Below are positions 3,700 through 18,397 of a DNA stretch of 64,000 nt, piece by piece. A program made the position numbers and the translations under genes. A model generated the notes under the pieces. That model did no database searches. It saw only the letters and a program-made list of their open reading frames with translations, and had not been told where the DNA came from. Within the stretch, counting starts at the first letter, position 1, and each line of letters starts with the position of its first letter. Source of the stretch: Hyphomicrobiales bacterium. GTDB taxonomy: Bacteria > Pseudomonadota > Alphaproteobacteria > Rhizobiales > Rhizobiaceae. The DNA lies in the NCBI GenBank assembly GCA_900468625.1, contig UBUL01000039.1, positions 1-64,000 of the forward strand, read 5' to 3'.

Positions 3700-4737
3700 T
3701 TATCCGTGATTGGATGAAGGACCGATGTTTTCTGACGTATAAGTCAGGAACGGGACCGCCTCTTGACTGACGGGCACATCGATGATCCCCATTCGTGACA
3801 GGATCGTATCCAGAGCGCGCCTGGCCTGCGTTTCGGGCGCCTGATCGAGAACGAGCGTCATCAATCCCGATGCGATGAAGCGGCGCGTTTCATCGTTGAG
3901 CTCATGTCCTATCCAGACGCAATTCCTCCCCCGCTGCTCCTGAAAGCGCTGAAGCACCGAGCCCACACCGAGATTGGCACCGCCTGCATTATAAATGCCG
4001 ACAATATCTGGAGAGCGCCGCAGCGCCTGCGTCATCATCTCGGCGGATTTCACGTCGTCATCCAGGCCGAACACGACCTCCGAAAATTGCAGTTCGGGGC
4101 TGCCATGGAATTCGAGATAGTCCGAAAAACCGCGAATGCGCTCCCTGTGTATCTGATAGGCCCAGCTGTGACAGACGGCGACGACGCTACCCTTGGCGTG
4201 CCTGAGCATGCGTGACATGTAAAAGCCGGCGGTTCGGCCTGCCGCGTAGTTGTCGATGCCGACGAACACGTCATCTCGGCCTGTGAGATAGGAGACGATC
4301 TGAACGACTTCGACGCCCGCGGCGCGGGCCTTTCGCAAACTCTCCCGAATAGCGGGATGATCGACGGCTGCGACGATCAGGCCGTGCCGGCGAATGCTGA
4401 TATTGGCCACATGCGCTGCAAATTTTTCAGGATCGCTCTCCTCGACGAATGTTCGATGAACCGTGATCGAGCTATCCAGCGAGGCTGCAATCCGCTCGAA
4501 GGCGCGGTTGAGCCTGCTGAAGAACGGTGACTCCGGCCTGACCAGAATCACTTCGATGCGGATCGTGCCTCGATAGAGGCTCGGAATCAGTCCCTTGTAG
4601 CCCAGCCGCTTGGCCGCGAGCACCACCTTCTCCGCCGTCTGCGGCCTGACGCTGCCGCGTTCGTTGAGAACGCGCTCTACCGTCGCAAGACCGACACCTG
4701 CCTCGGCCGCGATATCCACCAGACGGGTTTTCTTCAT
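3700..4737 (-). CDS. LacI-family transcriptional regulator
   Basis: A 345-residue repressor. The N-terminal LacI helix-turn-helix is clear: KKTRLVDIAAEAGVGLATVERVLN, followed by the hinge-proximal VRPQTAEKVVLAAKRLGYKG. Residues 65-330 form a periplasmic-binding-like sensor domain (IRIEVILVRPESPFFSRL, FVGIDNYAAGRTAG, DIVGIYNAGGANLG), close to the inositol/ribose-sensing type. It is divergent from the Rieske ferredoxin gene at 4916. Known rhizopine clusters use the GntR-type MocR, so a LacI regulator here is a difference. The shared TTGATGAAA motif near its own promoter and two others suggests autoregulation and control of the island. Confidence 0.88.
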   Translation of the reverse strand: MKKTRLVDIAAEAGVGLATVERVLNERGSVRPQTAEKVVLAAKRLGYKGLIPSLYRGTIRIEVILVRPESPFFSRLNRAFERIAASLDSSITVHRTFVEESDPEKFAAHVANISIRRHGLIVAAVDHPAIRESLRKARAAGVEVVQIVSYLTGRDDVFVGIDNYAAGRTAGFYMSRMLRHAKGSVVAVCHSWAYQIHRERIRGFSDYLEFHGSPELQFSEVVFGLDDDVKSAEMMTQALRRSPDIVGIYNAGGANLGVGSVLQRFQEQRGRNCVWIGHELNDETRRFIASGLMTLVLDQAPETQARRALDTILSRMGIIDVPVSQEAVPFLTYTSENIGPSSNHG

Positions 4738-4748
4738 TCCGCTCCTCC

Positions 4749-4766
4749 TTGATGAAAAATGATCAT
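4749..4766. promoter_or_regulatory. candidate LacI operator in the divergent LacI-mocE region
   Basis: TTGATGAAAAA at 4749-4759 runs into the palindrome ATGATCAT (4759-4766). The 11-mer is the exact reverse complement of 1270-1280 upstream of the binding-protein gene. It lies 12-29 bp upstream of the regulator start codon. Confidence 0.45.
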
Positions 4767-4915
4767 AATCGGCGTGGAATGTGAAGGGTTATCTCGCGCA
4801 TGCTTGAACCGATCGGGAGCAGAAAACGAAGCGCGATCAAGGCGCGACGGCAACTTGCTCCCAACATCCGACAATGATTTTCGCGCCTTGCGACGATTGC
4901 AATGAGGAGAAAGAA

Positions 4916-5233
4916 ATGACGACCTGGGTTGATGCATACGCTGCCGGTGAAATCGATCAGGAGGACGTGGTCCGCTTCGATCACGCCGGGCGAACCTTTG
5001 CGATCTATCGCAGCCCTGACGATGAATATTTTGCGACCGACGGGCTTTGCACTCACGAGAAAATCCATCTGGCCGATGGGCTTGTCATGGATGACACCAT
5101 CGAGTGTCCGAAGCACAATGGCCGCTTCAGCTACAAGACCGGCGAGGCGCGCGGTGCGCCGGTCTGCATCAATCTGAAAACCTATCCGGTCAAAGTGGAA
5201 GGCGATCGCATCATGATCGGGATCGGAGCATGA
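4916..5233 (+). CDS. mocE: Rieske-type [2Fe-2S] ferredoxin, MocE family
   Basis: A 105-residue soluble Rieske ferredoxin. The cluster ligands are visible as C45-T-H47 and C64-P-K-H67 (CTH...CPKH), the spacing expected for a bacterial Rieske ferredoxin. The ATG at 4916 is chosen over an in-frame ATG at 4874 because GAGGAGA sits directly in front of it and the resulting MTTWVDA start matches the family length. It should carry electrons from the reductase encoded next (overlapping ATGA) to the MocD oxygenase. The regulator gene is divergent. Confidence 0.9.
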   Translation: MTTWVDAYAAGEIDQEDVVRFDHAGRTFAIYRSPDDEYFATDGLCTHEKIHLADGLVMDDTIECPKHNGRFSYKTGEARGAPVCINLKTYPVKVEGDRIMIGIGA

Positions 5234-6471
5234 GCCGCGACAAGGGTATCATCATCGTCGGCGCCGGCGAATGCGGCGCGCGCGCCGCACTGAGCCTGAG
5301 AGAGAACGGCTACCAACGCCCCATCACTCTTATCGGCGACGAGGTCTACCTTCCTTACGAACGCCCGCCTCTGTCCAAAAAGGTTTTGCTGGACGAGGCG
5401 CTGCCCGAAATACCCGCCGTTCTTAGCGATCTCGTGCTGAGCGAACAGGCGATCAGACATATCGGAGGCGCTTCGGCTGATGCCATCGACGCATCGGGAA
5501 AGCAGCTTATCCTTTTGGATGGCCGGGCGCTCGCCTATGACAAACTGCTGTTGACGACGGGCGCGATGCCCAGGCGATTACCGAGCGCTCCTGTCAGCGG
5601 CCGGATATTCTATCTAAGGACAATAGACGAGGCGCTGGCGCTTCGTTCCCTGATCCGGCCCGACATGCATGTCGGCGTGCTCGGCGGCGGCTTCATCGGC
5701 CTGGAAGTTGCCGCATCGGCACGAAGTCGCGGAGCGAAGGTCACGGTGATCGAGTCGCAGGAGCGCATTCTCAAGCGCGGCGTACCTGAGCCGATCGCTG
5801 AAACCATCACAGCCCTGCACCAGCGCAACGGCGTCGTCGTGAGGTGCGGCGTGGCGGTTTGCGGGATAGAAGCGGATGAACGGCGCGTCGACATCTTACT
5901 CTCCGATGGAGATGTGATTTCGGCAGATGTGCTGGTCGTCGGGATCGGGGCGCAGCCGCGCACCGAGCTTGCTACTAAAGCGGGCATTGCGATCGATAAC
6001 GGCATTGCCGTCAACGAGCGCCTGGAAACATCGATTGCAGACATCTTTGCCGCCGGCGATTGCTGCTCGTTTCCGCATTCTCTTTATGGCGGTCGCCGGC
6101 TGCGCCTCGAAGCCTGGCGCAATGCACAGGATCAGGGCATTCTCGCTGCGGCCAATTTGACAGGTGCGGCTCGCGGCTATCAGGCCGTTCCCTATTTCTG
6201 GTCCGACCAGTTCGATCATACATTGCAGATCGCCGGCCTCGTCGATGAGGGACGCACGGTCGTTAGACGCGATCTCGATGACGGCGCCTTCATTCTGTTT
6301 CATCTCGACGCGGAGCAAAGGCTGATCGCTGCCAGCGGCGTCGGCCGTGGCAACAAGGTCGCCAGGGATATCAAACTTAGCGAGATGCTGATTGCCAAGC
6401 GTGTCGTCCCGCCGATCGAGGCTTTGACGGCCGGCGTAAACCTGAAGTCTCTCTTGGCAAAGGCAGCATAA
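5230..6471 (+). CDS. mocF: FAD/NAD(P)-dependent ferredoxin reductase, MocF-like
   Basis: A 413-residue flavoprotein of the rubredoxin/ferredoxin reductase type. The FAD-binding GAGECG motif is at residues 11-16, YLPYERPPLSKK at about 40, the NAD(P)-binding VLGGGFIGLEVA at about 150, and the second FAD motif IFAAGDCCSF at about 270. Its ATG overlaps the TGA of the ferredoxin gene, so translation is coupled. It probably passes electrons from NAD(P)H to the Rieske protein. Convergent with the HAD phosphatase gene 45 bp downstream. Confidence 0.9.
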   Translation: MSRDKGIIIVGAGECGARAALSLRENGYQRPITLIGDEVYLPYERPPLSKKVLLDEALPEIPAVLSDLVLSEQAIRHIGGASADAIDASGKQLILLDGRALAYDKLLLTTGAMPRRLPSAPVSGRIFYLRTIDEALALRSLIRPDMHVGVLGGGFIGLEVAASARSRGAKVTVIESQERILKRGVPEPIAETITALHQRNGVVVRCGVAVCGIEADERRVDILLSDGDVISADVLVVGIGAQPRTELATKAGIAIDNGIAVNERLETSIADIFAAGDCCSFPHSLYGGRRLRLEAWRNAQDQGILAAANLTGAARGYQAVPYFWSDQFDHTLQIAGLVDEGRTVVRRDLDDGAFILFHLDAEQRLIAASGVGRGNKVARDIKLSEMLIAKRVVPPIEALTAGVNLKSLLAKAA

Positions 6472-8328: not shown

Positions 8329-9270
8329 ATGACGAAATTGACGACAGCGGAGATGCGCGGTTACCAGCAGATTTGCGGCAGCGATGGCGCCATGATGGTG
8401 ATTGCCTGCGACCAGCGCGGCGGCATGCGCAGCCTCCTGGCCAAGGATCCGGCCGAGCAGGCCGCCATCTCGGACAAGGTGCTTGGGGACACAAAGGCCG
8501 ATATCGCCCGCTTCCTTGCAAGCAAGGCCTCCTGCGTTCTCGTCGATCCGATCTGTGCCGTGCCGGCGCTGGTCGATGATCACGTCCTCCAGCGCGATAC
8601 CGCGCTGCTGATCGGTCTCGACGCCTCCGGTTGGGATATGTCACCGGAGGGCTATCGTCTGTCGAAGCCCGTTTCCGGTATTTCGGCGCGCCGCGTGCGC
8701 CAGCTCGGCGCGACCGGCGGCAAGATCATGGTCTATCTGCGCTCGGACCGGGATGCAGCGAACGTCCATAACATCCAGATCCTGAAGCAATGCATCGAAG
8801 ACTTCGCGCGCGAGGATCTCCTGCTTGTCGTTGAATTCCTGACCTATAAGTTCGACGATGAGGACGAGGCCGAGTACACTGCGAAGCTGCCATCCCTGAT
8901 CGTCGGCGGCAGTAGGATCTGCCTGGATCTGGGGGCGAAAGTCTTGAAGATCCCTTATCCGGGATCGTCGCAAGCCTGTGCCGAAGTGACGCGCCTTGCC
9001 GGCGACGTGCCATGGGCGGTACTCTCGGCTGGCGTCGACCACTCGACGTTCCTGACGCAGGTCGAGGACGCCATGCGCAACGGCGCCTCCGGCGTCATCG
9101 CCGGACGCTCGCTGTGGAAGGACTGTATTTCACTCGATCGTACCGTGACGAAGGATCGGCTGGAGTCGGTCGCGGTGCCAAGGCTCCGTGAAATCCAGGC
9201 CGTCATTGCGAACCACTTCAAAGGTACGGGCGCGCATGGCGCCGATCAAAGGCAGCGCGCCAATGGCTGA
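8329..9270 (+). CDS. LacD-family aldolase (tagatose-bisphosphate/sulfofructose-phosphate aldolase-like)
   Basis: A 313-residue class I aldolase-like TIM barrel. The N-terminal half has MVIACDQRGGMRSLL, ASCVLVDPICAVPAL and LLIGLDASGWD; the candidate Schiff-base Lys lies in GGKIMVYLR; the C-terminal barrel has GAKVLKIPYPG, WAVLSAGVDHSTFLTQVE and GVIAGRSLWKD. This matches LacD tagatose-1,6-bisphosphate aldolases and their relatives that cleave other sugar phosphates. The ATG at 8329 follows GGAGGAAGG. It overlaps the kinase gene by 8 bp. The substrate is unknown; the neighbours suggest a sugar phosphorylated by the ROK kinase. Confidence 0.82.
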   Translation: MTKLTTAEMRGYQQICGSDGAMMVIACDQRGGMRSLLAKDPAEQAAISDKVLGDTKADIARFLASKASCVLVDPICAVPALVDDHVLQRDTALLIGLDASGWDMSPEGYRLSKPVSGISARRVRQLGATGGKIMVYLRSDRDAANVHNIQILKQCIEDFAREDLLLVVEFLTYKFDDEDEAEYTAKLPSLIVGGSRICLDLGAKVLKIPYPGSSQACAEVTRLAGDVPWAVLSAGVDHSTFLTQVEDAMRNGASGVIAGRSLWKDCISLDRTVTKDRLESVAVPRLREIQAVIANHFKGTGAHGADQRQRANG

Positions 9271-10675
9271 CACCGCTATCGGCGTTGATATTGGCGGCAC
9301 GAATATTCGTGCTGCTTTGGTCTCCGCTCGAGGCGAAATACTAGCCAAGCTGTCGGAACGCACGCCAACCGATCCCTTGCTGGCATTGGAACGTGTCATT
9401 GCGATGGCGCACAGCCTCGACGAATCCAGGGTCTTGGGCGTTGGTGTCGGCATACCTGGTCGGGTCGACGTCGCCACCCGGGAAATCTTGTCCGGCGGCA
9501 TCTTGAACCTCGCCGGCCTCGACCTCGTAAAGCGGCTGGAGGCAACCCTTGGAAAGCCTGTCCTCGTCGAGAATGATTGCAGTATGGCACTCATCGCCGA
9601 GATGCGGATCGGCGGCGCCAAGGGCTATCGCAACGTTGCGATGTTGACGATCGGCACGGGCATCGGCGGCGCCGTCGCCCATGGCGGACGGATCTATCAC
9701 GGCCATAGGGCTGCAGGGCAGCTCGGCCATATCTGCGTATCCCAGGACGGTCCGCCCTGCCCTTGTGGCAGGCGCGGCTGTGTCGAAACCTTCAGCTCCG
9801 GAACCGCTTTGCGCCGGCACATCGCCGAGGCCGGACTGTCTGCCGTGACGATCAAGGAGGTGTTCGACATGGCCGCCGAAGGAGATCGCGCCGCAGCACG
9901 GGTCCTGCGCCAATGGGCGGTTCCCTTGCGCATGGCGCTCGACAATATCGCGGCGACAATGGATCCCGAAGTCATCCTGCTCGGCGGAGGGCTCGGCTGC
10001 GACGCAGCGCGCGCTCTTGCCGATCTGCCTGCCGTGGCGCCGTGGTTTTGTCCTGCCATATTGCCGGCGAAACTTGCCGGCAATGCCGGCGTAATCGGCG
10101 CAGGGCTTTCGATTTTCGATGCCGATACCGCGCCACAAGGAAAGCGTGTCGTCCTGGTCAACGGTGTACCGGCATCCGGCAAAAGCCGGCTTGCCAAGGC
10201 TGTTTCCCAGCGGACCGGCTGGCCGATCCTGTCTCTCGACGGTATCAAAAACCCGTTTCTGCAGCATATCGGCCTTGTCGATCGCGACTTCAATCGGGCG
10301 TTGGGAAAGGCGAGTTACCAGGCGATCTGGTCGTTCATTGCCGAGGCACCTGCCAATTCGACCTTCATCATCGATGCCTGGTTCGGCTTCCAGCCGAAGG
10401 CGCAGCTCGAAAACTATATCAATGCTGCGAACATCGAGCATGTCGCGGAGCTATGGTGCAAGGTGCCCGGATCGGTCGCAGGCGAGCGTTATGTCAGCAG
10501 GCTGAAGGATCGATTGCCCGGTCATCCGGGCGCCGAATATGTACCCGAACTGATTGGGCTCGCCGATCGGGCCGAGCCCATGGCCTGCGGTGCCGTCATG
10601 ACGATCGATCAGACGCAGGAGCCGGATATGGAGACCATCCTGGCCTGGCTTTCCCAGGTCTTCCACCGCGAATGA
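9263..10675 (+). CDS. ROK-family sugar kinase fused to a C-terminal P-loop kinase domain
   Basis: A 470-residue two-domain protein. Residues 1-290 are a complete ROK kinase: GVDIGGTNIRAAL at the N-terminus, LVENDC, the IGTGIGGA phosphate loop, AGQLGHI, and the zinc motif CPCGRRGCVE. From about residue 293 a second domain begins with VVLVNGVPASGKSRLAK, a Walker A (GVPASGKS at 301-308), then FIIDAWFGF and a YVSRLKDRLPGHPG stretch, like small-molecule kinases of the chloramphenicol-phosphotransferase or AAA_33 type. ROK proteins normally stop near 300 residues, so this is a fusion. An ATG at 9236 is also in frame; 9263 gives the standard N-terminus. It probably phosphorylates the imported sugar, perhaps twice. 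Confidence 0.87.
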   Translation: MADTAIGVDIGGTNIRAALVSARGEILAKLSERTPTDPLLALERVIAMAHSLDESRVLGVGVGIPGRVDVATREILSGGILNLAGLDLVKRLEATLGKPVLVENDCSMALIAEMRIGGAKGYRNVAMLTIGTGIGGAVAHGGRIYHGHRAAGQLGHICVSQDGPPCPCGRRGCVETFSSGTALRRHIAEAGLSAVTIKEVFDMAAEGDRAAARVLRQWAVPLRMALDNIAATMDPEVILLGGGLGCDAARALADLPAVAPWFCPAILPAKLAGNAGVIGAGLSIFDADTAPQGKRVVLVNGVPASGKSRLAKAVSQRTGWPILSLDGIKNPFLQHIGLVDRDFNRALGKASYQAIWSFIAEAPANSTFIIDAWFGFQPKAQLENYINAANIEHVAELWCKVPGSVAGERYVSRLKDRLPGHPGAEYVPELIGLADRAEPMACGAVMTIDQTQEPDMETILAWLSQVFHRE

Positions 10676-10901
10676 CGCGAGCTGCCGACGGGACAGACAG
10701 GACAATGCGAAATGATATTGAACGATCGCGCGGTCCTATGTTTCCGACGGATCACAATGTCGCGCTCATGTCGGAATTGGCAATCATATCAATTGGCTGA
10801 ATGAAATTCCTTGCAGAAAAAAATTACTTGACGTGCCGAAGTAACCCACTGATTATCGCTTTGCCGGACGGGGGAGGTTCGGCTTCAAGAGGAGGAAAAT
10901 T

Positions 10902-11891
10902 ATGGAGCGTCGCTCATTTCTCAAGGCTACGGCCGTGGCATCGCTCGCTGCCGGTGTTGCGGCAGTTGCCGAAAGCACCAAAGCCGCAGATAAGAAGTTC
11001 ACGATTGCCCTCATTCCGGGCCTGACGACCGATGCCTTCTACATCACCATGCGCAAGGGCGCCGAGGCCGCAGCCAAAGCCGTCGGTGCGACTCTGGTGT
11101 TCCAAGGCGGCCCCGATTTCAACCCCGTGACCCAGGTCCCGGTTCTTGATGCGGTCATAGCCAAGAAACCCGATGCGATCCTTATTGCACCGACCGACAA
11201 GGATCAGCTGATCCAGCCGCTGAAGAAGGCTGCGGATGCCGGCATCCCGATCATCACCGTCGATACCTTCATCGGCACGGGTGTCTACCAGACGGGCAAG
11301 GGCGATGCCGACTTTCCGCTGTCCTACATTGCTTCCGACAACCTGCTCGGCGGCGCGATTGCCGCGCGTGCGCTGGCAAAGGCCGTGGGAGAAAAGGGCA
11401 AGGTCTACGTTTCCAACGTGAAGCCTGGCATCTCGACAACGGACCAGCGCGAGCAGGGCTTCAAGGAGGAAATGAAGAAGTATCCGAACATCACCGTTCT
11501 GGAGACGCAATACAACGACGACGATGCCAACAAGGCCGCATCTCAGCTGCAGGCAGTCTTTGCCCGCAATTCCGATCTCGATGGTGTCTTCGGGGCCAAT
11601 CTGTTTTCCGCCCTTGGTGCCGCCAATGGCGTGCAGCAGGCCGGCCAGACGGGCAAGATCCGGGTGGTCGCCTTCGATGCGCCGACGTCGATCGTCGATA
11701 ACATCAACTCCGGCCTCGTCGATCTGGCAATCGCACAGCATCCTGCCGAGATCGGCTATTTCGGCGTGATGGCAGCCTATGCCCACCTGACCGGCAATTC
11801 GATCCCGACGGCGATCGGCACCGGCTTCACGGTCATCGACAAATCGAACGTGACGGACAAGAACGTCGCGAAGTTCATCTACTCCGATTGA
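10902..11891 (+). CDS. sugar ABC transporter substrate-binding protein with Tat-like signal
   Basis: A 329-residue RbsB/FrcB-type binding protein. The N-terminus ERRSFLKATAVASLAAG has the twin-arginine signature, and mature protein probably begins near residue 28. The body has IALIPGLTTDAFYITMRKGAEAAA, DAILIAPTDKDQLIQPLKKA, GIPIITVDT and IRVVAFDAPTSIVDNI, the ribose/fructose binder pattern. A strong AGAGGAGG ribosome site precedes the ATG. It is the first gene of an importer whose permease and ATPase follow. The sugar cannot be told from sequence. Confidence 0.9.
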   Translation: MERRSFLKATAVASLAAGVAAVAESTKAADKKFTIALIPGLTTDAFYITMRKGAEAAAKAVGATLVFQGGPDFNPVTQVPVLDAVIAKKPDAILIAPTDKDQLIQPLKKAADAGIPIITVDTFIGTGVYQTGKGDADFPLSYIASDNLLGGAIAARALAKAVGEKGKVYVSNVKPGISTTDQREQGFKEEMKKYPNITVLETQYNDDDANKAASQLQAVFARNSDLDGVFGANLFSALGAANGVQQAGQTGKIRVVAFDAPTSIVDNINSGLVDLAIAQHPAEIGYFGVMAAYAHLTGNSIPTAIGTGFTVIDKSNVTDKNVAKFIYSD

Positions 11892-12000: not shown

Positions 12001-13065
12001 ATGACAATCGACAATGCAGAGGTCCGCAAGGCGGATCAACACGTGGCGCCGCAGGCAGACCACGGCGACCAGGCAAAAACCATCCTAAACCGCATCGCGC
12101 AATTGCGCGCATGGCTCTTTCTTGCCGCGCTGATCATCGCCTTCGAGATCTGGGCGCGGATCGATTTCGGCGGCACCTTCGTTGGATCGAGCTTCAACTG
12201 GCAGTCCGTCGCGATCTTCGCCGTAGCACCGCTGCTGCTGGCGATCGGGCAGACCTTCGTCATCATTTCAGGCGGCATCGATCTGTCGACCGGCTTCATC
12301 ATGGGGCTTGCCGCCGTCGTCGCGGCACACATCGCCAATATCGCCGGGCTCTACCTGCCCCTGCCGATAGCAATGGTATTCGGCATTCTCGTTGCCATGC
12401 TGGCCGCCGCCATACCCGGCTTCATCAATGGTCTGCTGATCTCCCGTCTCAAGGTTCCGCCGTTCATCGGCACGCTCGGCATGTTCGGTGTTGCGCGCGG
12501 CACGGCCTTCCTGATTGCCGGCGGCACCACCGTGCCGGTCAAAAATTCCTATTTCGCCGAGCTCGGCAACGGACGGTTCTACGGCGTACCCTATCTCGTC
12601 ATCGTCACGCTCGTCTTCGTAGTGATCATGCATTACCTTTTGAGCCAAACCCGCTTTGGCCAGCATAATTATGCCATCGGCGCCAATGCGCAGGCGGCGC
12701 GGCGCGCCGGCATCGACATCAAGTTCCACCTGCTGCGGCTCTATATATTGTCGGCCGTCTGCGCAGGCCTGGGCGGCGCGCTCTATGCGGCCCGTTTCAC
12801 CGCGGGTGCGGCCCAGGCGGGCGAACCCTTGCTGCTCGACAGCGTGGCAGCCGTCGTCATCGGCGGCGCGAGCCTCTTCGGCGGTTCCGGTACGATCATC
12901 GGCACCATTGCCGGTGCTCTCGTCATCGCCGTCATTCAGTACGGTCTCGTCTTCATGAATGTGGAGCCGTTTTGGCAATTCATCGCCGTCGGCGTCGTCA
13001 TCATTATTTCGGTGCTCATCGACCAGGCGCAGCGTCGGTTCAGCGGAGCGAAACAGGATGAATAA
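12001..13065 (+). CDS. sugar ABC transporter permease (RbsC/FrcC family)
   Basis: A 354-residue inner-membrane permease of the BPD_transp_2 family. About eight to ten hydrophobic segments start at residue 38, and the family signatures VIISGGIDLSTGFIMGLAAVVAA and LKVPPFIGTLGMFGVARGTAFLIAGG are plain. GALYAARFTAGAAQ...GEPLLLDSVAAVVIGGASLFGG is the C-terminal EAA-like region. The ATG at 12001 is used because the in-frame TTG 12 bp earlier has no better SD. Its 3-prime end overlaps the ATPase start. One permease gene implies a homodimer in the membrane. Confidence 0.9.
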   Translation: MTIDNAEVRKADQHVAPQADHGDQAKTILNRIAQLRAWLFLAALIIAFEIWARIDFGGTFVGSSFNWQSVAIFAVAPLLLAIGQTFVIISGGIDLSTGFIMGLAAVVAAHIANIAGLYLPLPIAMVFGILVAMLAAAIPGFINGLLISRLKVPPFIGTLGMFGVARGTAFLIAGGTTVPVKNSYFAELGNGRFYGVPYLVIVTLVFVVIMHYLLSQTRFGQHNYAIGANAQAARRAGIDIKFHLLRLYILSAVCAGLGGALYAARFTAGAAQAGEPLLLDSVAAVVIGGASLFGGSGTIIGTIAGALVIAVIQYGLVFMNVEPFWQFIAVGVVIIISVLIDQAQRRFSGAKQDE

Positions 13066-13804
13066 TGTCACTCCCCTCCTCGAGGTCCGCAACCTCTCGC
13101 GCTATTTCGGCGCGGTCCGTGCCCTCGACAATTGCTCCATGGTCGTCCGACCCGGGGAGGTCGTAGCTCTGGCCGGCGACAACGGCGCCGGCAAGACGAC
13201 GATGATCAAGGCGATCTCCGGCGTCTATCCGCCGACCGCAGGCGAAATTTTGATCGAAGGCAAACCCGTCAGCTTCTCATCGCCGCAGGATGCGCGCGAG
13301 AAGGGCATTGAGACGATCTACCAGGATCTGGCGCTGGCCGACAATCTGACGATCGGTTCCAACATCTTTCTCGGGCGTGAACCGATGAAGAAGCTCTTCG
13401 GCTTCCTGCCGGTCCTGGACCGGAAAGCCATGGCGGAAGCGGCGCGCAAGACGATGGCAGAGCTCGATTTCCATGTGAAGCGGCTCGACGCGCCGGTCAG
13501 CAACTTCTCCGGTGGTCAGCGCCAGGCGGTCGCGATCGGACGTGCGGTTTACTGGAATGCCCGCATTCTGGTCATGGACGAACCGACGGCGGCGCTCGGC
13601 GTGCCGGAGCAACGCAAGGTGGTGGCCCTGATCAAATCGCTGAAGGCGCAGGGGCGCGGCGTCATCTTCATCTCACATAATCTGCAGGATATTTTCGCGG
13701 TCTCCGACCGCATCGTCGTCCTGCGGCGCGGCATCGTCGCCGGCGAGCGTAACATTGCCGACACCAATCATGAGGAAGTCGTCAGGCTCATGATCGGTGG
13801 GTAA
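13058..13804 (+). CDS. sugar ABC transporter ATP-binding protein (single-domain, FrcA type)
   Basis: A 248-residue ATPase with one nucleotide-binding domain: Walker A GDNGAGKT, signature FSGGQRQAVAIGRA, Walker B ILVMDEPTAALG, and switch His in FISHNLQDI. Ribose-type RbsA proteins carry two such domains in about 500 residues; the single-domain form is like the fructose system FrcA. The ATG lies inside the last codons of the permease gene (8-bp overlap), giving coupled translation. Confidence 0.92.
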   Translation: MNNVTPLLEVRNLSRYFGAVRALDNCSMVVRPGEVVALAGDNGAGKTTMIKAISGVYPPTAGEILIEGKPVSFSSPQDAREKGIETIYQDLALADNLTIGSNIFLGREPMKKLFGFLPVLDRKAMAEAARKTMAELDFHVKRLDAPVSNFSGGQRQAVAIGRAVYWNARILVMDEPTAALGVPEQRKVVALIKSLKAQGRGVIFISHNLQDIFAVSDRIVVLRRGIVAGERNIADTNHEEVVRLMIGG

Positions 13805-13838
13805 CAGGATCGCCAGCACATGATTTGAGATCGAGAGC

Positions 13839-13869
13839 GGCAATGGTGTTTCATCGCCATTGCCATTTT
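13839..13869 (+). terminator. rho-independent terminator of the sugar ABC operon
   Basis: GGCAATGG (13839-13846) pairs with CCATTGCC (13857-13864), followed by ATTTT. It lies 35 bp after the stop of the ATPase gene. Confidence 0.65.
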
Positions 13870-13947
13870 GTTACCGGCAATCAAGGGGCTCATATTGGAT
13901 TCGCAAGCGCGGCAAAACGCCGGCAGCCCGGTTTCTGTTGATTTATC

Positions 13948-13983
13948 TGATTGCACTCGTATATATTGCTATCAATGCAATCA
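13948..13983. promoter_or_regulatory. candidate FitAB autoregulatory operator
   Basis: TGATTGCA (13948-13955) and TGCAATCA (13976-13983) form a perfect 8-bp inverted repeat separated by 20 bp. The spacer holds the AT-rich TATAT (13960-13965), a probable -10 region, 37 bp upstream of the antitoxin start. Arms two helical turns apart suit the tetrameric DNA-binding mode of a FitA ribbon-helix-helix complex. Confidence 0.6.
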
Positions 13984-14002
13984 AATGTGGGAGCATGAAG
14001 CA

Positions 14003-14260
14003 ATGGCATCCATCACCATCCGCAATGTTCCAGACGAGGTGCATCGCGCGATCCGGGTGCGAGCTGCTATGCATGGTCGCAGTACTGAAGCCGAAATCCG
14101 CGACATTCTGGAAAAAGCGGCAAAGCCGGAAGGTCGTCTGAAACTAGGTTCGCTGTTGACATCCATCGCCCGCGAAGCGGGGGGGCTAACCGAGGCCGAA
14201 GCCGAGAGCTTCAATCAGCTTCGCGACAAGACCCCGGTCGAACCGATTAGCTTCGAATGA
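14003..14260 (+). CDS. fitA: FitA-like ribbon-helix-helix antitoxin
   Basis: An 85-residue protein. The N-terminal MASITIRNVPDEVHRAIR-VRAAMHGRSTEAEIRDIL is the RHH fold typical of FitA/VagC-type antitoxins of type II toxin-antitoxin systems. The C-terminal half (LTEAEAESFNQLRDKTPVEPISFE) would wrap the toxin. GGGAG at 13990-13994 sets the ATG at 14003; an in-frame ATG at 13985 has no SD. The stop overlaps the toxin start (ATGA). It should neutralise the toxin and, with it, repress the promoter through the inverted repeat just upstream. Confidence 0.88.
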   Translation: MASITIRNVPDEVHRAIRVRAAMHGRSTEAEIRDILEKAAKPEGRLKLGSLLTSIAREAGGLTEAEAESFNQLRDKTPVEPISFE

Positions 14261-14676
14261 TCGTTCTCGATACCAACGTCATTTCCGAGCTGTGGAAGGC
14301 CACGCCGGATCCCAATGTGTTGTCGTGGATCGACGCACAGATGATCGACACTCTTTACCTCTCGATCATCACGGTTGCCGAACTGCGCTTCGGCTTGGCG
14401 ACGATGCCGGAAGGCAAGCGACGTAGGATCTATCAAGACCGACTGGAAAGAGAGGTTTTGCCGGCCTTTGCCAACCGGTTTCTGCTGTTCGACTTGGACG
14501 CCTCGCGAGCCTATGCCGACCTGATGGCGCTGGCGAGGGCGGCGGGCAAATCCATTGGCAAGGCGGACGTCTATATTGCCGCCACGGCCGCTTCCCACGG
14601 CCTTATCGTAGCCACGCGCGATACTGGCCCTTTTGAGGCTGCCGGCTTAAACGTCATCAACCCTTGGAACACCTAG
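14257..14676 (+). CDS. fitB: FitB-like PIN-domain toxin (predicted ribonuclease)
   Basis: A 139-residue PIN-domain protein of the VapC/FitB type. The acidic catalytic residues are intact: D5 in VLDTNVISE, E42 in VAELRFG, D104 in GKADVYIAA and D122 in ATRDTG, so the nuclease site looks functional. The length is normal. It is translationally coupled to the antitoxin. A chromosomal role in stress or symbiosis-linked growth control has been described for related rhizobial modules, but nothing here decides it. Confidence 0.9.
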   Translation: MIVLDTNVISELWKATPDPNVLSWIDAQMIDTLYLSIITVAELRFGLATMPEGKRRRIYQDRLEREVLPAFANRFLLFDLDASRAYADLMALARAAGKSIGKADVYIAATAASHGLIVATRDTGPFEAAGLNVINPWNT

Positions 14677-14945
14677 AAATGAGAGCGGTTAAGCCAGCCG
14701 TGCGATAAATCCGTCGGACAATCCGAACACTTAACTGGCAACAGCTTGTTCGCGCTGGGCATCGCCTGGCGATCCGCGCGCCCGCCCCCATTTGATCGTT
14801 GATCGCAGAGCTGACAAGGAAATATTCGCGACTTTCGACCGGGGATATGCGCACCGCTCACCTATCCCTATAACAAATACCGTCAAGAGGCTGGATCGAG
14901 AAAGAGCCGCCGGGCTATAAGTGCTTTTCCTGGAGGCAAGCAGGC

Positions 14946-16460
14946 ATGACCGAAGCCGTACACATTGTGTCTTTCACGGATGCTGCACCGAAGATAGGCG
15001 ACATTGCTGCAATCGCGCGACGCAGCGCACGGATCGAGGTTTCGCCTGACGTCGAAGACAAGATCGCCGCAGCCCGCGCTGTCGTTGAACGCTATCTGGC
15101 GGCCGACCGGCCTGTTTATGGTTTGACGACGGCATTGGGCGCGGGCGTCGACACTCGCCTAGCCACCGACGACCTCATTGCTTTTCAAATGCGCGTGCCG
15201 CAAGCCCGCGCAGTCGGCGTCGGGCCAGCGTTACCGCGCGAAGCGGTAAGGGCAATGATGGCCGCCCGCATCGCCGGCATGGCGGCTGGCGGCTCCGGCG
15301 TGTCGCTGCCGGTCTTCGCAGGCCTCGTCGCCGCGTTGAATGCGGGCTTTCATCCGGTGGTGCCATCGCTCGGTTCGATCGGTGCAGCCGATCTTGCGCC
15401 CTTGGCGCATATGGGACGGGCCTTACTGGGAGATGGTGAGGCCGAACTTGACGGCACCGCCATGCCGGCAAAGGATGCTTTATCGAAGGCAGGCTTGATG
15501 CCTTTGCCGATCGGACCCAAGGACGGACATGTCCTCGTGGTGGCCAACAGCCTGTCGGTTGGCAAGGCATGCCTGTGCATCGAGGATATCGAACGCTTGT
15601 TCGATTGGTCGCTTGCGGCTGTCGCGCTGAATTTCGAGGCATTCCGCGCCAATGTATCGGCCTTCGACGACCGGGCGCTGGCGGCAAGGCCGGCCTTCGG
15701 CCAGCGCGAGGCGGCGGCAAGGCTTCGCGAGCTGCTGTCCGGAAGCTCTCTCCTTATCGATGGCGCGGCGCGGCGCCTGCAGGATCCCTTGAGCTATCGC
15801 TGTGCCCCGCAGGTATGGGGTGCCCTCCTCCATGCGATCGGCGAAGCGCGCGCCGCAACCGAGATCGAGCTTGCCAGCTCCGGCGACAATCCCGTCGTGC
15901 TGGTCAAGGAAGGGCTGATCCTGTCGCATGGCAATTTCGACATGACGGCCTTCGTTCTGGCATGGGAACGGCTTGGCCAGGCGATCGCCCATTGTGCGGC
16001 TGCGACTGCCTATCGCAGCATGAAAATCATGTCTCCAGGCATGTCGGAGCTGCCACGTTTCCTGACCCCACTCGGGCAGAGCAGAACAGGCTTTGCCACG
16101 GTGCAGAAAACGGTCTCGGCACTCGAAGCCGAGATACGACATCTGGCCATGCCGGTTTCGCTCACACCGATCCCGGTGGCCGATGGCATCGAGGATCAGG
16201 CGTCGATGGCGCCGAGTGTTCTCTCGAAAATCGAAGCGATGATCGAGCGGCTTCGTTATCTCGTGGCGATCGAGCTTGTCGCGTCCGCCCAGGCGGTTGA
16301 TCTGCGCGGTGTGGCGGGCGAACTCGGCAGCGGAACGCAGCGCGCCTATCGCAAGGTGCGCCAACTGGTGCTGCCGCTTGAGGAGGACCGCGCCCAAGGT
16401 CCCGACTTTCAAAGAGTATCGGGGTTCATTGCAGATACGGCCATGAAGTCTGCAACCTGA
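14946..16460 (+). CDS. histidine/phenylalanine ammonia-lyase homologue lacking the MIO triad
   Basis: A 504-residue protein of the aromatic amino acid lyase (HAL/PAL) superfamily over its whole length. Y58 in PVYGLTT matches the catalytic tyrosine of HAL, and R285 in DPLSYRCAPQVWG and SSGDNPVV are family signatures. The key cofactor loop, normally GSxGASGDLAPLAH, reads GSIGAADLAPLAH (143-155): one residue is missing and there is no Ala-Ser-Gly to cyclise into MIO. A second active-site tyrosine (DPYSLRC in HAL) is replaced by leucine 282, with Tyr two positions later. It therefore cannot be a normal ammonia lyase. GGAGG precedes the ATG. It heads a cluster with a cyclodeaminase homologue and a PhnD-like protein. 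Confidence 0.85.
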   Translation: MTEAVHIVSFTDAAPKIGDIAAIARRSARIEVSPDVEDKIAAARAVVERYLAADRPVYGLTTALGAGVDTRLATDDLIAFQMRVPQARAVGVGPALPREAVRAMMAARIAGMAAGGSGVSLPVFAGLVAALNAGFHPVVPSLGSIGAADLAPLAHMGRALLGDGEAELDGTAMPAKDALSKAGLMPLPIGPKDGHVLVVANSLSVGKACLCIEDIERLFDWSLAAVALNFEAFRANVSAFDDRALAARPAFGQREAAARLRELLSGSSLLIDGAARRLQDPLSYRCAPQVWGALLHAIGEARAATEIELASSGDNPVVLVKEGLILSHGNFDMTAFVLAWERLGQAIAHCAAATAYRSMKIMSPGMSELPRFLTPLGQSRTGFATVQKTVSALEAEIRHLAMPVSLTPIPVADGIEDQASMAPSVLSKIEAMIERLRYLVAIELVASAQAVDLRGVAGELGSGTQRAYRKVRQLVLPLEEDRAQGPDFQRVSGFIADTAMKSAT

Positions 16461-16573: not shown

Positions 16574-17578
16574 ATGCAGGAAATCTGGATCGACTATCTG
16601 AACGCCATCGATGCCAAGGCGCTGGCGCTTTCCAATGATGAAATCCTTGACGCCGTGACCAAGGCGCTTGATGCGCAAGGACGCGGCGAGACCGTGATTG
16701 AGCCCCGCGTCCATCTCGTGCCTGAGAGCTCCGACAAAGGTCATTTCAACGTGTTGCGCGGTTACGTGAAGCCGCTCGACTATGCCGGCGTCAAGGTCGT
16801 CGGCGATTTCGTCGACAACTACAAGCAGGGGCTGCCCTCCGAAATGGCGGTCCTTAACCTGTTCGATCCGCGCACCGGCGTGCCGAAGGCGATCGTCGAT
16901 GCGACTGCCATCACCGACATGCGCACCGGCGCAGTCACCGCCATCGGCGCCCGCCATCTCGCGCGCGAGGATAGCAAGATCCTCGGCCATATCGGCGCAC
17001 GCGGCACCTCCTACTGGAACGTGCGGCTGCTCGATCACCTCTTCGATTTCGATGAGATCCGCGTGCACTCGCGCCGCCCGGAAAGCCGAGACGCTTTCGC
17101 AGCACGGCTGGAAGCCGATCTAGGCAAGAAAATTATCGTGACGGACAATTGGGAGGATTGCCTGAAAGGCGCCGATATCATGATCGAGGCAAGCCGCCTG
17201 CCGGAGCCGACGCCGCTTTTCAAGACCGCCTGGGTCAAGAAAGGTGCCTTCGTCGTACCCTACGGCACCATGAGCGCGCTCGAATTCGACCTCACAGACA
17301 TCATGGACAAGGTCGTCGTCGACGATTGGGGACAGTGCGGCCCCGGCCGCCCGTTCGGCGCGCTTCGCCGCCATGTCGATGAGGGCAAGGTGACGGCCGA
17401 GACGCTGCATGCCGAAATCGGCCAGATCGTTTGCGGCGCCAAGCCCGGCCGCGAAAGCGACGACGAAACCATCCTCTTCTGGCATCGTGGCCTTAGCACG
17501 ACCGACGTCGCGCTCGGCGCGGCGATGGTCGAAAAAGCAAAACGCATGAATATTGGCCAGCGGCTTCGGTTTGCGTGA
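16574..17578 (+). CDS. ornithine cyclodeaminase/mu-crystallin family protein
   Basis: A 334-residue NAD(P)-binding protein of the OCD/mu-crystallin family. The VDATAITDMRTGAVTAIGARHLAR segment (about residues 109-132) is the family signature, followed by the Rossmann region ILGHIGARGTSYWNVRLL and VHSRRPESRDAFA, in which the usual GxGxxA/G loop is altered to GARGTS. Members reduce or deaminate cyclic imino acids, or make alanine and opine-like compounds. It lies 113 bp after the lyase homologue and 6 bp before the PhnD-like gene. The exact reaction is unknown. Confidence 0.85.
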   Translation: MQEIWIDYLNAIDAKALALSNDEILDAVTKALDAQGRGETVIEPRVHLVPESSDKGHFNVLRGYVKPLDYAGVKVVGDFVDNYKQGLPSEMAVLNLFDPRTGVPKAIVDATAITDMRTGAVTAIGARHLAREDSKILGHIGARGTSYWNVRLLDHLFDFDEIRVHSRRPESRDAFAARLEADLGKKIIVTDNWEDCLKGADIMIEASRLPEPTPLFKTAWVKKGAFVVPYGTMSALEFDLTDIMDKVVVDDWGQCGPGRPFGALRRHVDEGKVTAETLHAEIGQIVCGAKPGRESDDETILFWHRGLSTTDVALGAAMVEKAKRMNIGQRLRFA

Positions 17579-17584
17579 CGCGGC

Positions 17585-18397
17585 ATGACGGTATCTCCAG
17601 CTCCTGCGATTGCCTGCTCGCGAATGTACAATCTGAGCCCGAAAATATCGGGGCTTTGGGATCGGCTCTTTCGTTGGCTCACAGACCGGTCGGGCGTCGA
17701 ACTCGAGGTCATTGCCCATGCCGCCCCCGCACCTCTTTCGGAGCTGTGGGCTCGCCCGGACATGGGGGCCGTCTTCATGTGCGGTTTTCCGTTCTCCCAA
17801 TTGCCGAAAGCAGAGTGTCCGCAACCATTGGCCGCTCCAGTTTCGCTGGCAGACTGGGCAAACGGGCAGCCCGTCTACGCAAGCCATATCGTCACCGCGC
17901 GTGACCGGACGCTCACAGAAGCCGATCTTGCGGCCGTGCGCTGGGGCTGGACCGTGCGGGACTCGCAATCCGGCTATAATGCGCCACGGGAATTCTTTGC
18001 ATCGCTTGGCGGAGGGTCGGCGAACAAGACTGTCGGCCCTCTCCTCAATCCGCGCGGCGTCATCGAAGCGATCCGTTCGGACGCCGTCGATGTCGGCGCC
18101 ATTGATGCTTATGCCTATCAGCTTCTGAATATTCATGAGCCGGACGTGATTGCACCATTGCGAGTTATCGCCACGACAAAGCCGGCACCTTTTCCTCTGC
18201 TGGTTGCCTCCCGGCAGCAGTCTCCGGAAATCGTTGCGGCGCTTCGCGCCGCACTGGTTGGCGCCCACCAGGACCTAGAAGGACGCGATATCCTTAGATC
18301 GCTTGGCTTGGCGGCCTTTGCCGAACCGGACATTACTGCCTATGAACAACTGCCTGCGCGAGCCGAAGCCGTCAATGAAGCCCTCGGGATATGGTGA
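17585..18397 (+). CDS. PhnD/SsuA-like substrate-binding protein without a signal peptide
   Basis: A 270-residue protein like the phosphate/phosphonate ABC binding family (PhnD-like, Peripla_BP type II). Evidence is GAVFMCGFPFSQLP, YASHIVTARD, GWTVRDSQSGYNAPREFF and IDAYAYQLLNIHEPDVIAPLRVIATTKPAPFPLL. The N-terminus MTVSPAPAIACSRMYN shows no hydrophobic signal, so it appears cytoplasmic. Such leaderless forms may be sensors or enzymes. It starts 6 bp after the cyclodeaminase homologue and belongs to that operon. No transporter membrane gene is adjacent. Confidence 0.75.
   Translation: MTVSPAPAIACSRMYNLSPKISGLWDRLFRWLTDRSGVELEVIAHAAPAPLSELWARPDMGAVFMCGFPFSQLPKAECPQPLAAPVSLADWANGQPVYASHIVTARDRTLTEADLAAVRWGWTVRDSQSGYNAPREFFASLGGGSANKTVGPLLNPRGVIEAIRSDAVDVGAIDAYAYQLLNIHEPDVIAPLRVIATTKPAPFPLLVASRQQSPEIVAALRAALVGAHQDLEGRDILRSLGLAAFAEPDITAYEQLPARAEAVNEALGIW

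Follow-up and report, generated by a model that had tools for sequence, protein, structure and literature searches.

The window analysed here, a stretch of 64,000 nucleotides in all, carries on its + strand a gene for a MIO-lacking HAL-fold lyase (14946..16460), followed after a gap of 113 bp by a gene of an OCD/mu-crystallin-family dehydrogenase subfamily (16574..17578, + strand, 334 aa) and, after a gap of 6 bp, by a gene for a PhnD-family protein (17585..18397, + strand, 270 aa). The OCD protein is predicted to use the product of the lyase; the PhnD-like protein, which has no signal peptide by eye, is a possible oxyanion binder. These two genes are the only partners of the lyase at this locus. 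A first-pass annotation of the DNA had spoken of an apparent operon, which is plausible, although it would be a short one, made up of these three genes with the two gaps between them. Directly upstream of the lyase lies a gene pair for a FitA-like antitoxin and a PIN-domain (VapC-like) toxin (13868-14676, + strand), and at 9188-10675 (+ strand) the window encodes a sugar kinase of the ROK family with a P-loop domain (AAA_33-like, below cut-off) fused at its C terminus.

The lyase gene and its short loop

The lyase gene has an ATG start and encodes 504 aa, which match the PF00221 profile over residues 17-473 (451.5 bits), as expected for the fold and length of the HAL/PAL/TAL family; we predict a MIO-free amine lyase acting on a histidine-derived betaine. 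The Ala-Ser-Gly triad is the source of the MIO cofactor. In place of the MIO loop, the window lyase has the short loop GSIGAADLAPLAH (residues 143-155, nt 15372..15410, + strand), with Ala147-Ala148-Asp149 at nt 15384-15392. Alignment with the loop of P. putida HAL shows a deficit of one residue and no triad, in agreement with the first reading of the letters, which had noted a shortened loop without Ser-Gly. Because Ala-Ser-Gly is absent, MIO cannot be formed in the known way.

Among the 57 related loci that a scan of named genomes returned, 50 (L005-L054) are orthologs with 64-91% identity. The short loop is present in all 50 orthologous loci, as are Tyr58, Leu282, Lys388 and Glu416. A sequencing error whose correction would restore GASGD, named in the first-pass annotation as a possible refutation, is thereby excluded, and the idea that a sequencing or assembly error removed the triad, in favour of which we found nothing, has practically no probability left. 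Across seven ortholog pairs, dN/dS ranged from 0.065 to 0.142, indicating purifying selection; together with the loop conserved in 50/50 orthologs, this rules out a pseudogene or a gene in decay. We also rejected a plain HutH because of the missing triad, the loss of HAL Tyr280 and the score against the HutH equivalog TIGR01225 (373.6 bits, below the curated cut-off of 539.15). These observations confirm that the window lyase is a genuine MIO-lacking relative of HAL, and a product of neither artefact nor decay.

Active-site residues and relation to ergothionase

Like HutH (P. putida 1b8f; TIGR01225), which it resembles in fold and length, the window lyase retains HAL Tyr53, Gln277, Arg283, Phe329 and Glu414 in the alignment with P. 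putida HAL, and it differs from HutH by the lost MIO triad and by three substitutions (His83 to Arg88, Asn195 to Val, and Tyr280 to Leu). Y58 and R285, which had been named as preserved, are seen to be so in this alignment, and Glu416 (codon 16191..16193, + strand) corresponds to HAL Glu414. The segment Leu282-Ser-Tyr284-Arg285 (15789..15800, + strand) retains HAL Arg283 and has Leu for Tyr280; the first-pass annotation had called this second tyrosine shifted, and the change is real, but it is better described as a loss of HAL Tyr280 (Leu282), with another Tyr at 284.

Among PDB entries, T. denticola ergothionase (6s7j) scores best by sequence, with HAL behind it, although overall identity to ergothionase (30-33%) is no higher than to P. 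putida HAL (35%). The AlphaFold2 model of the lyase has a mean pLDDT of 85.9 and a pTM of 0.89, with pLDDT below 50 at residues 61-67 and 368-381. With this model, Foldseek ranked ergothionase 6s7j at the top and HALs close behind (TM about 0.9 to P. putida HAL), and VIA-align placed HAL 7tqr (Z 41.9, rmsd 2.5, 475 aligned) level with ergothionase (Z 41.3, rmsd 2.6, 487 aligned). Ergothionase (ergothioneine trimethylamine-lyase; PDB 6s7j/6s7q) shares with the window lyase the HAL fold, the lack of MIO, the loop one residue short and Leu at the HAL Tyr280 site, and its Tyr, Lys and Glu at positions 53, 383 and 411 (PDB chain count), which we take to be catalytic, are matched by Y58, K388 and E416. 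It differs in belonging to another clade and in having His where the window lyase has Arg (HAL His83 site), and the window lyase, unlike ergothionase, is tied to an OCD-family enzyme. Loss of MIO within the HAL fold thus has a known precedent in ergothionase, which is described as lacking MIO in an excerpt of PMC13405746. The first-pass annotation had missed this precedent with its same one-residue-short loop, and its interpretation is supported in part: that the protein cannot make MIO, is not decaying and may perform a MIO-free reaction is supported by conservation, purifying selection and the kept active-site residues.

We placed the lyase in a tree of 58 rows, made by a quick method with SH-aLRT support only and with the long branches L059 and L215 joining each other. 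The window lyase falls in a clade of 24 rows (support 95), and ergothionase and five relatives form a separate one (99); the GCAD-loop rows form a further clade (100), and 22 rows that include HutH and the YxTH-loop rows make up another side (100). The deeper order is weakly supported (77) and joins the window clade to the HutH side, not to ergothionase, which suggests that MIO was perhaps lost more than once and that its loss in the window clade may have been independent. The phylogeny of MIO-lacking homologues and their gene context, put forward earlier as a check, sets the lyase in a separate clade and beside OCD and PhnD genes.

Residues at the active site follow these groups to differing degrees. 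At the Tyr280 site, all 39 MIO-less rows compared (L059 and L215 left out) have Leu, Ile or Val, and 8/8 HutH rows have Tyr. Lys388 (codon 16107..16109, + strand), which is Val in HutH rows and Lys in T. denticola ergothionase, occurs in 21/24 rows of the window clade, 5/6 of the ergothionase clade, 4/4 of the GCAD clade, 0/5 YxTH and 0/8 HutH rows. Arg88 (codon 15207..15209, + strand), at the HAL His83 site, is shared by 21 of the 24 rows of the window clade and absent from the 23 remaining rows compared; among the 50 orthologs, 43 have Arg and 7 have His. It is no strict clade marker, since the genomes of the seven His-type orthologs carry OCD and since Arg also occurs at this site in L089 b, a GMDG-loop lyase outside the tree rows compared. 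In L089, a region with an OCD-subfamily gene, two lyase relatives with a GMDG loop stand in tandem (12442-15506, - strand), and one of the two has Arg at the His83 site. Seven HutU matches were counted in genome G086, noted with L089.

A census of lyases across 289 genomes, for which the window protein served as bait (E up to 1e-20, hence biased to its relatives) and which left out the own genome's other three lyase copies and the two of L089, gave 116 frames in 115 loci: 90 with an Ala/Thr-Ser/Cys-Gly triad, 23 without it and 3 with the loop uncovered. Genome G246 (L231-L233, L235) contains four diverged PF00221 frames of about 600 aa with GEGD/GEAD loops. In the genome of the window itself, a second MIO-less lyase with the loop GCAD (10061-11752, - strand) lies in L238 (C35:139000-151273) near a divergent, HutU-like gene (4035-5696, - strand) and an amidohydrolase gene; between them are genes for an M20-type hydrolase and one more enzyme, both named by eye. 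This divergent HutU and amidohydrolase suggest that plain ergothioneine is handled there, and the region resembles a pathway from ergothioneine to glutamate. In all four genomes in which a GCAD-type lyase was noted (own, G015, G040 and G262), such a divergent HutU is at most 10 kb away. A third MIO-less lyase of the own genome (L239 on C25, 7433-8950, - strand) has the loop GSAGYLTHNAH, three residues short; a HutC that exceeds its cut-off and an amino-acid binding protein of the SBP_bac_3 family are encoded nearby.

Partner genes and genomic context

The OCD protein has the PF02423 fold (182.7 bits), and all 13 of its NCBIfam matches fall below their cut-offs, including that for ornithine cyclodeaminase/cyclodeaminase. 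The best of them is alanine dehydrogenase (187.5 vs 409.15). Of the solved structures, the archaeal alanine dehydrogenase (1omo) and the 4m54 group (SbnB) are nearest to the OCD protein. The nearest solved relative of the PhnD-like protein is AioX, an arsenite/phosphite-type binding protein. OCD and PhnD genes directly follow the lyase in 43 of the 50 orthologous loci, the same 43 that bear Arg88; this coincidence reflects one clade split, and the two traits are therefore not independent. OCD was present in 15/15 genomes or records of orthologous loci tested and was unlinked in seven, which are all seven of the His-type ones. Our own prediction that His-type orthologs would be without OCD was refuted, as 7/7 such genomes carry OCD elsewhere.

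We surveyed a sample of 289 alphaproteobacterial genomes, the window's own included, with the OCD subfamily defined by E up to 1e-60, and found this subfamily in 19 genomes and HutU in 76 (75 over cut-off). An Arg-bearing lyase of the window clade occurs in eight genomes (with the loop uncovered in one, L216). OCD was found in 8/8 of these versus 11/281 others (p=7e-11) and, within HutU-bearing genomes, in 8/8 versus 10/68 (p=2e-6), p-values that overstate the association because the Arg-type class was defined post hoc and the eight genomes belong to six families. Lyase and OCD are adjacent in two of the eight only (the own genome and G105); in the others they lie on different contigs or, in G261, far apart. 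HutU is present in 18 of the 19 OCD genomes (17 over cut-off). No lyase was found in the stretch examined at 16/19 OCD loci outside the own genome, some of these stretches ending at contig ends, and several OCD loci adjoin peptide-type ABC genes (by eye), which suggests that the role of OCD is perhaps broader.

These data bear on the possibility that the window protein is a non-catalytic, binding or regulatory pseudoenzyme. According to a portion of PMC3903478, a phenylalanine ammonia-lyase in which the replacement of Ser by Ala blocked MIO formation had practically no activity left on L-Phe; this makes ordinary deamination unlikely for the window lyase and, together with the lost triad, would fit a protein without activity. 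For substrates whose rings are electron-poor, a section of PMC7247363 reports that such enzymes have a MIO-independent route. Against a pseudoenzyme, Y58, K388 and E416 are kept in 50/50 orthologs under purifying selection, the lyase is associated genome-wide with a dehydrogenase and has gene neighbours of catabolic type, and, by the excerpt already mentioned, a MIO-free enzyme of the same fold exists (PMC13405746). We consequently regard a pseudoenzyme as quite improbable and do not favour the binding or regulatory role that the first-pass annotation had offered.

Neighbourhoods in relatives are richer than that of the window. In R. johnstonii 3841, the order is LysR, PF03601 putative sulfate exporter, CoA-transferase, SDR, MaoC, HutC and lyase, then OpuAC-type binding protein, OCD, PhnD, two permeases and ATPase, and the genes from CoA-transferase to lyase overlap end to start. 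HutC of this strain passed TIGR02018 (279.1 vs 220) and was below NF011575 (234.6 vs 424), and the exporter was under the TIGR00698 YeiH cut-off. Counting proteins with at least 50% identity to those of R. johnstonii, we found the exporter near 16 of the 50 orthologs, betaine ABC genes near 25, HutC near 26, and CoA-transferase, SDR and MaoC near 24-27 (MaoC 27). None of these is present at the window locus; the own genome's best matches to the R. johnstonii CoA-transferase and betaine-binding protein reach just 38% and 34%, and its HutC (C25, C40) and PF03601 exporter (C29) are on other contigs than the lyase. The rhizobial-type cluster is also largely present in the L031 record, which is titled Mycobacterium sp. 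KBS0706 and which the tree places within Rhizobiales; either the record is mislabelled or a transfer has taken place.

Similar sets occur in more distant relatives. Paracoccus saliphilus has, within 15 kb, a similar lyase, hutU, G, H and I, formimidoylglutamate deiminase, a PF03601-type exporter, OCD, PhnD and HutC, and in Paraburkholderia OCD, a HutU relative and the lyase are consecutive. Lyase and OCD are accompanied by OpuAC-type ABC genes in Martelella, by glycine-betaine-type ABC genes in Rhizobium CFT758, by relatives of the glycine-betaine-type set in Streptomyces and by an ABC set in Sinorhizobium B11. Leaderless lyases (L062, L113 and L115) adjoin OpuAC- or glycine-betaine-type ABC genes, whereas in Polaromonas the order is LysR, exporter, lyase, tricarboxylate-type binding protein, OCD and PhnD, and the lyase there has a leader-like N-terminus (by eye) and 41% identity to ergothionase; this swap of transporters fits a betaine substrate. 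Out of 84 matching records, we examined 12 OCD regions, all on plasmid records of other types than R. leguminosarum and R. tropici, and nine of these regions contain a MIO-less lyase. The OCD regions of Comamonadaceae L117 and Rhodococcus L119 have only an ordinary MIO HutH, and in that of Cupriavidus L110 we found no lyase in the stretch examined.

Two alternative substrates have to be weighed against these neighbourhoods. One is ergothioneine itself, which an ergothionase proper would convert to thiourocanate and trimethylamine, a reading that overlaps with our own and differs in the substrate. Ergothionase is the closest solved relative by score and has Tyr, Lys, Glu and Leu282 in common with the window lyase, and betaine-type ABC genes lie in 25/50 orthologous loci. 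We nevertheless think it unlikely: the T. denticola enzyme is in a different clade, His has changed to Arg at the ring site, the cluster is without a second HutU or a hydantoinase-like gene (the own genome has its divergent HutU and amidohydrolase by another MIO-less lyase), and the exporter, HutC and OCD would be left unexplained. The other is a different betaine, such as hercynine or a plant aromatic betaine like hypaphorine, whose acrylate product would be degraded by CoA-transferase, MaoC and SDR. The betaine transporter genes and the frequent presence of these three genes, overlapping with HutC and the lyase in R. johnstonii, speak for this second alternative, but the linkage to HutC and HutU indicates urocanate and the exporter genes suggest sulfur, and we would not expect it to be correct.

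A candidate trimethylamine-releasing route

From the observed loss of MIO, its conservation, the residues shared with ergothionase and the genetic and genomic linkage to OCD, to which linkage with Hut, betaine-uptake and exporter genes is added in part of the relatives, we infer a leaving group, a substrate and a reaction for OCD. We lean, if only slightly, towards the view that the window protein is a MIO-free HAL-fold lyase that would cleave trimethylamine from a histidine-derived betaine, with ergothioneine sulfonate as the favoured substrate and with OCD making urocanate. In HAL and PAL, the electrophilic MIO activates a primary amine. A quaternary amine leaves readily by itself, and an ergothionase-like beta-elimination of the tertiary amine, trimethylamine, would therefore not require an electrophilic MIO. 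The acid/base set of Tyr58, Lys388 and Glu416 may be enough for this elimination, while Arg285 would hold the carboxylate and Arg88, which stands in the place of HAL His83, could hold the 2-sulfonate of ergothioneine sulfonate. Elimination would yield 2-sulfo-urocanate, whose C2=N bond the OCD-family enzyme may reduce, releasing sulfite; the resulting urocanate would pass to HutU, and sulfite or sulfate could exit via the PF03601-type exporter in those relatives that have one.

This scheme, in which each chemical step is proposed, would unite the facts on betaine uptake, Hut, exporter and PhnD. Betaine import and trimethylamine elimination would account for the OpuAC genes and the dispensable MIO, the linkage to HutC and HutU points to urocanate as the end product, and sulfite is suggested by the exporter together with the PhnD protein, which resembles an oxyanion binder (nearest AioX). 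The CoA-transferase, SDR and MaoC are superfluous to the sulfonate model and are left unexplained by it. In its most specific form, trimethylamine would be eliminated from ergothioneine sulfonate by a distinct MIO-free clade of the HAL fold, most members of which have Arg where the imidazole is contacted, and urocanate would then arise through reductive desulfonation of the imidazole ring, an unusual reaction for which an OCD-fold enzyme would be responsible; we put this forward tentatively, as a possibility that is rather doubtful in all its details.

A pathway of this kind may already be on record. An ergothioneine sulfonate catabolic pathway was reportedly reconstituted by Yan, Huang and Zhang in 2022 (ACS Catal. 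12:4825), as their title has it, and that title matches the pathway proposed here. In the excerpt of PMC13405746, their work is cited for Agrobacterium radiobacter. The current name of A. radiobacter K84 is Rhizobium rhizogenes K84, and the full cluster is present in the R. rhizogenes records L016 and L050; if K84 was the strain used, an overlap is quite possible, and that paper possibly covers the window cluster already. Among literature titles on MIO-less lyases, on ergothioneine with OCD, HutH or hercynine, and on Rhizobium with ergothioneine and trimethylamine, we found none on the window clade.

The loss of MIO is not unprecedented in itself, and the points of note are the separate clade, its Arg88 and its firm tie to the OCD partner. 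Besides a normal HutH, the own genome has three distinct HAL-fold lyases that are free of MIO, which, if these assignments are true, would make MIO loss, perhaps repeated, a recurrent route to new catabolism of histidine derivatives. Annotations of histidine ammonia-lyase in rhizobia and others include MIO-free enzymes that are unable to deaminate histidine in the usual way. Recognising this clade and its OCD partner would correct such annotations and may point to a trimethylamine-releasing, sulfur-recycling route for betaines in soil.
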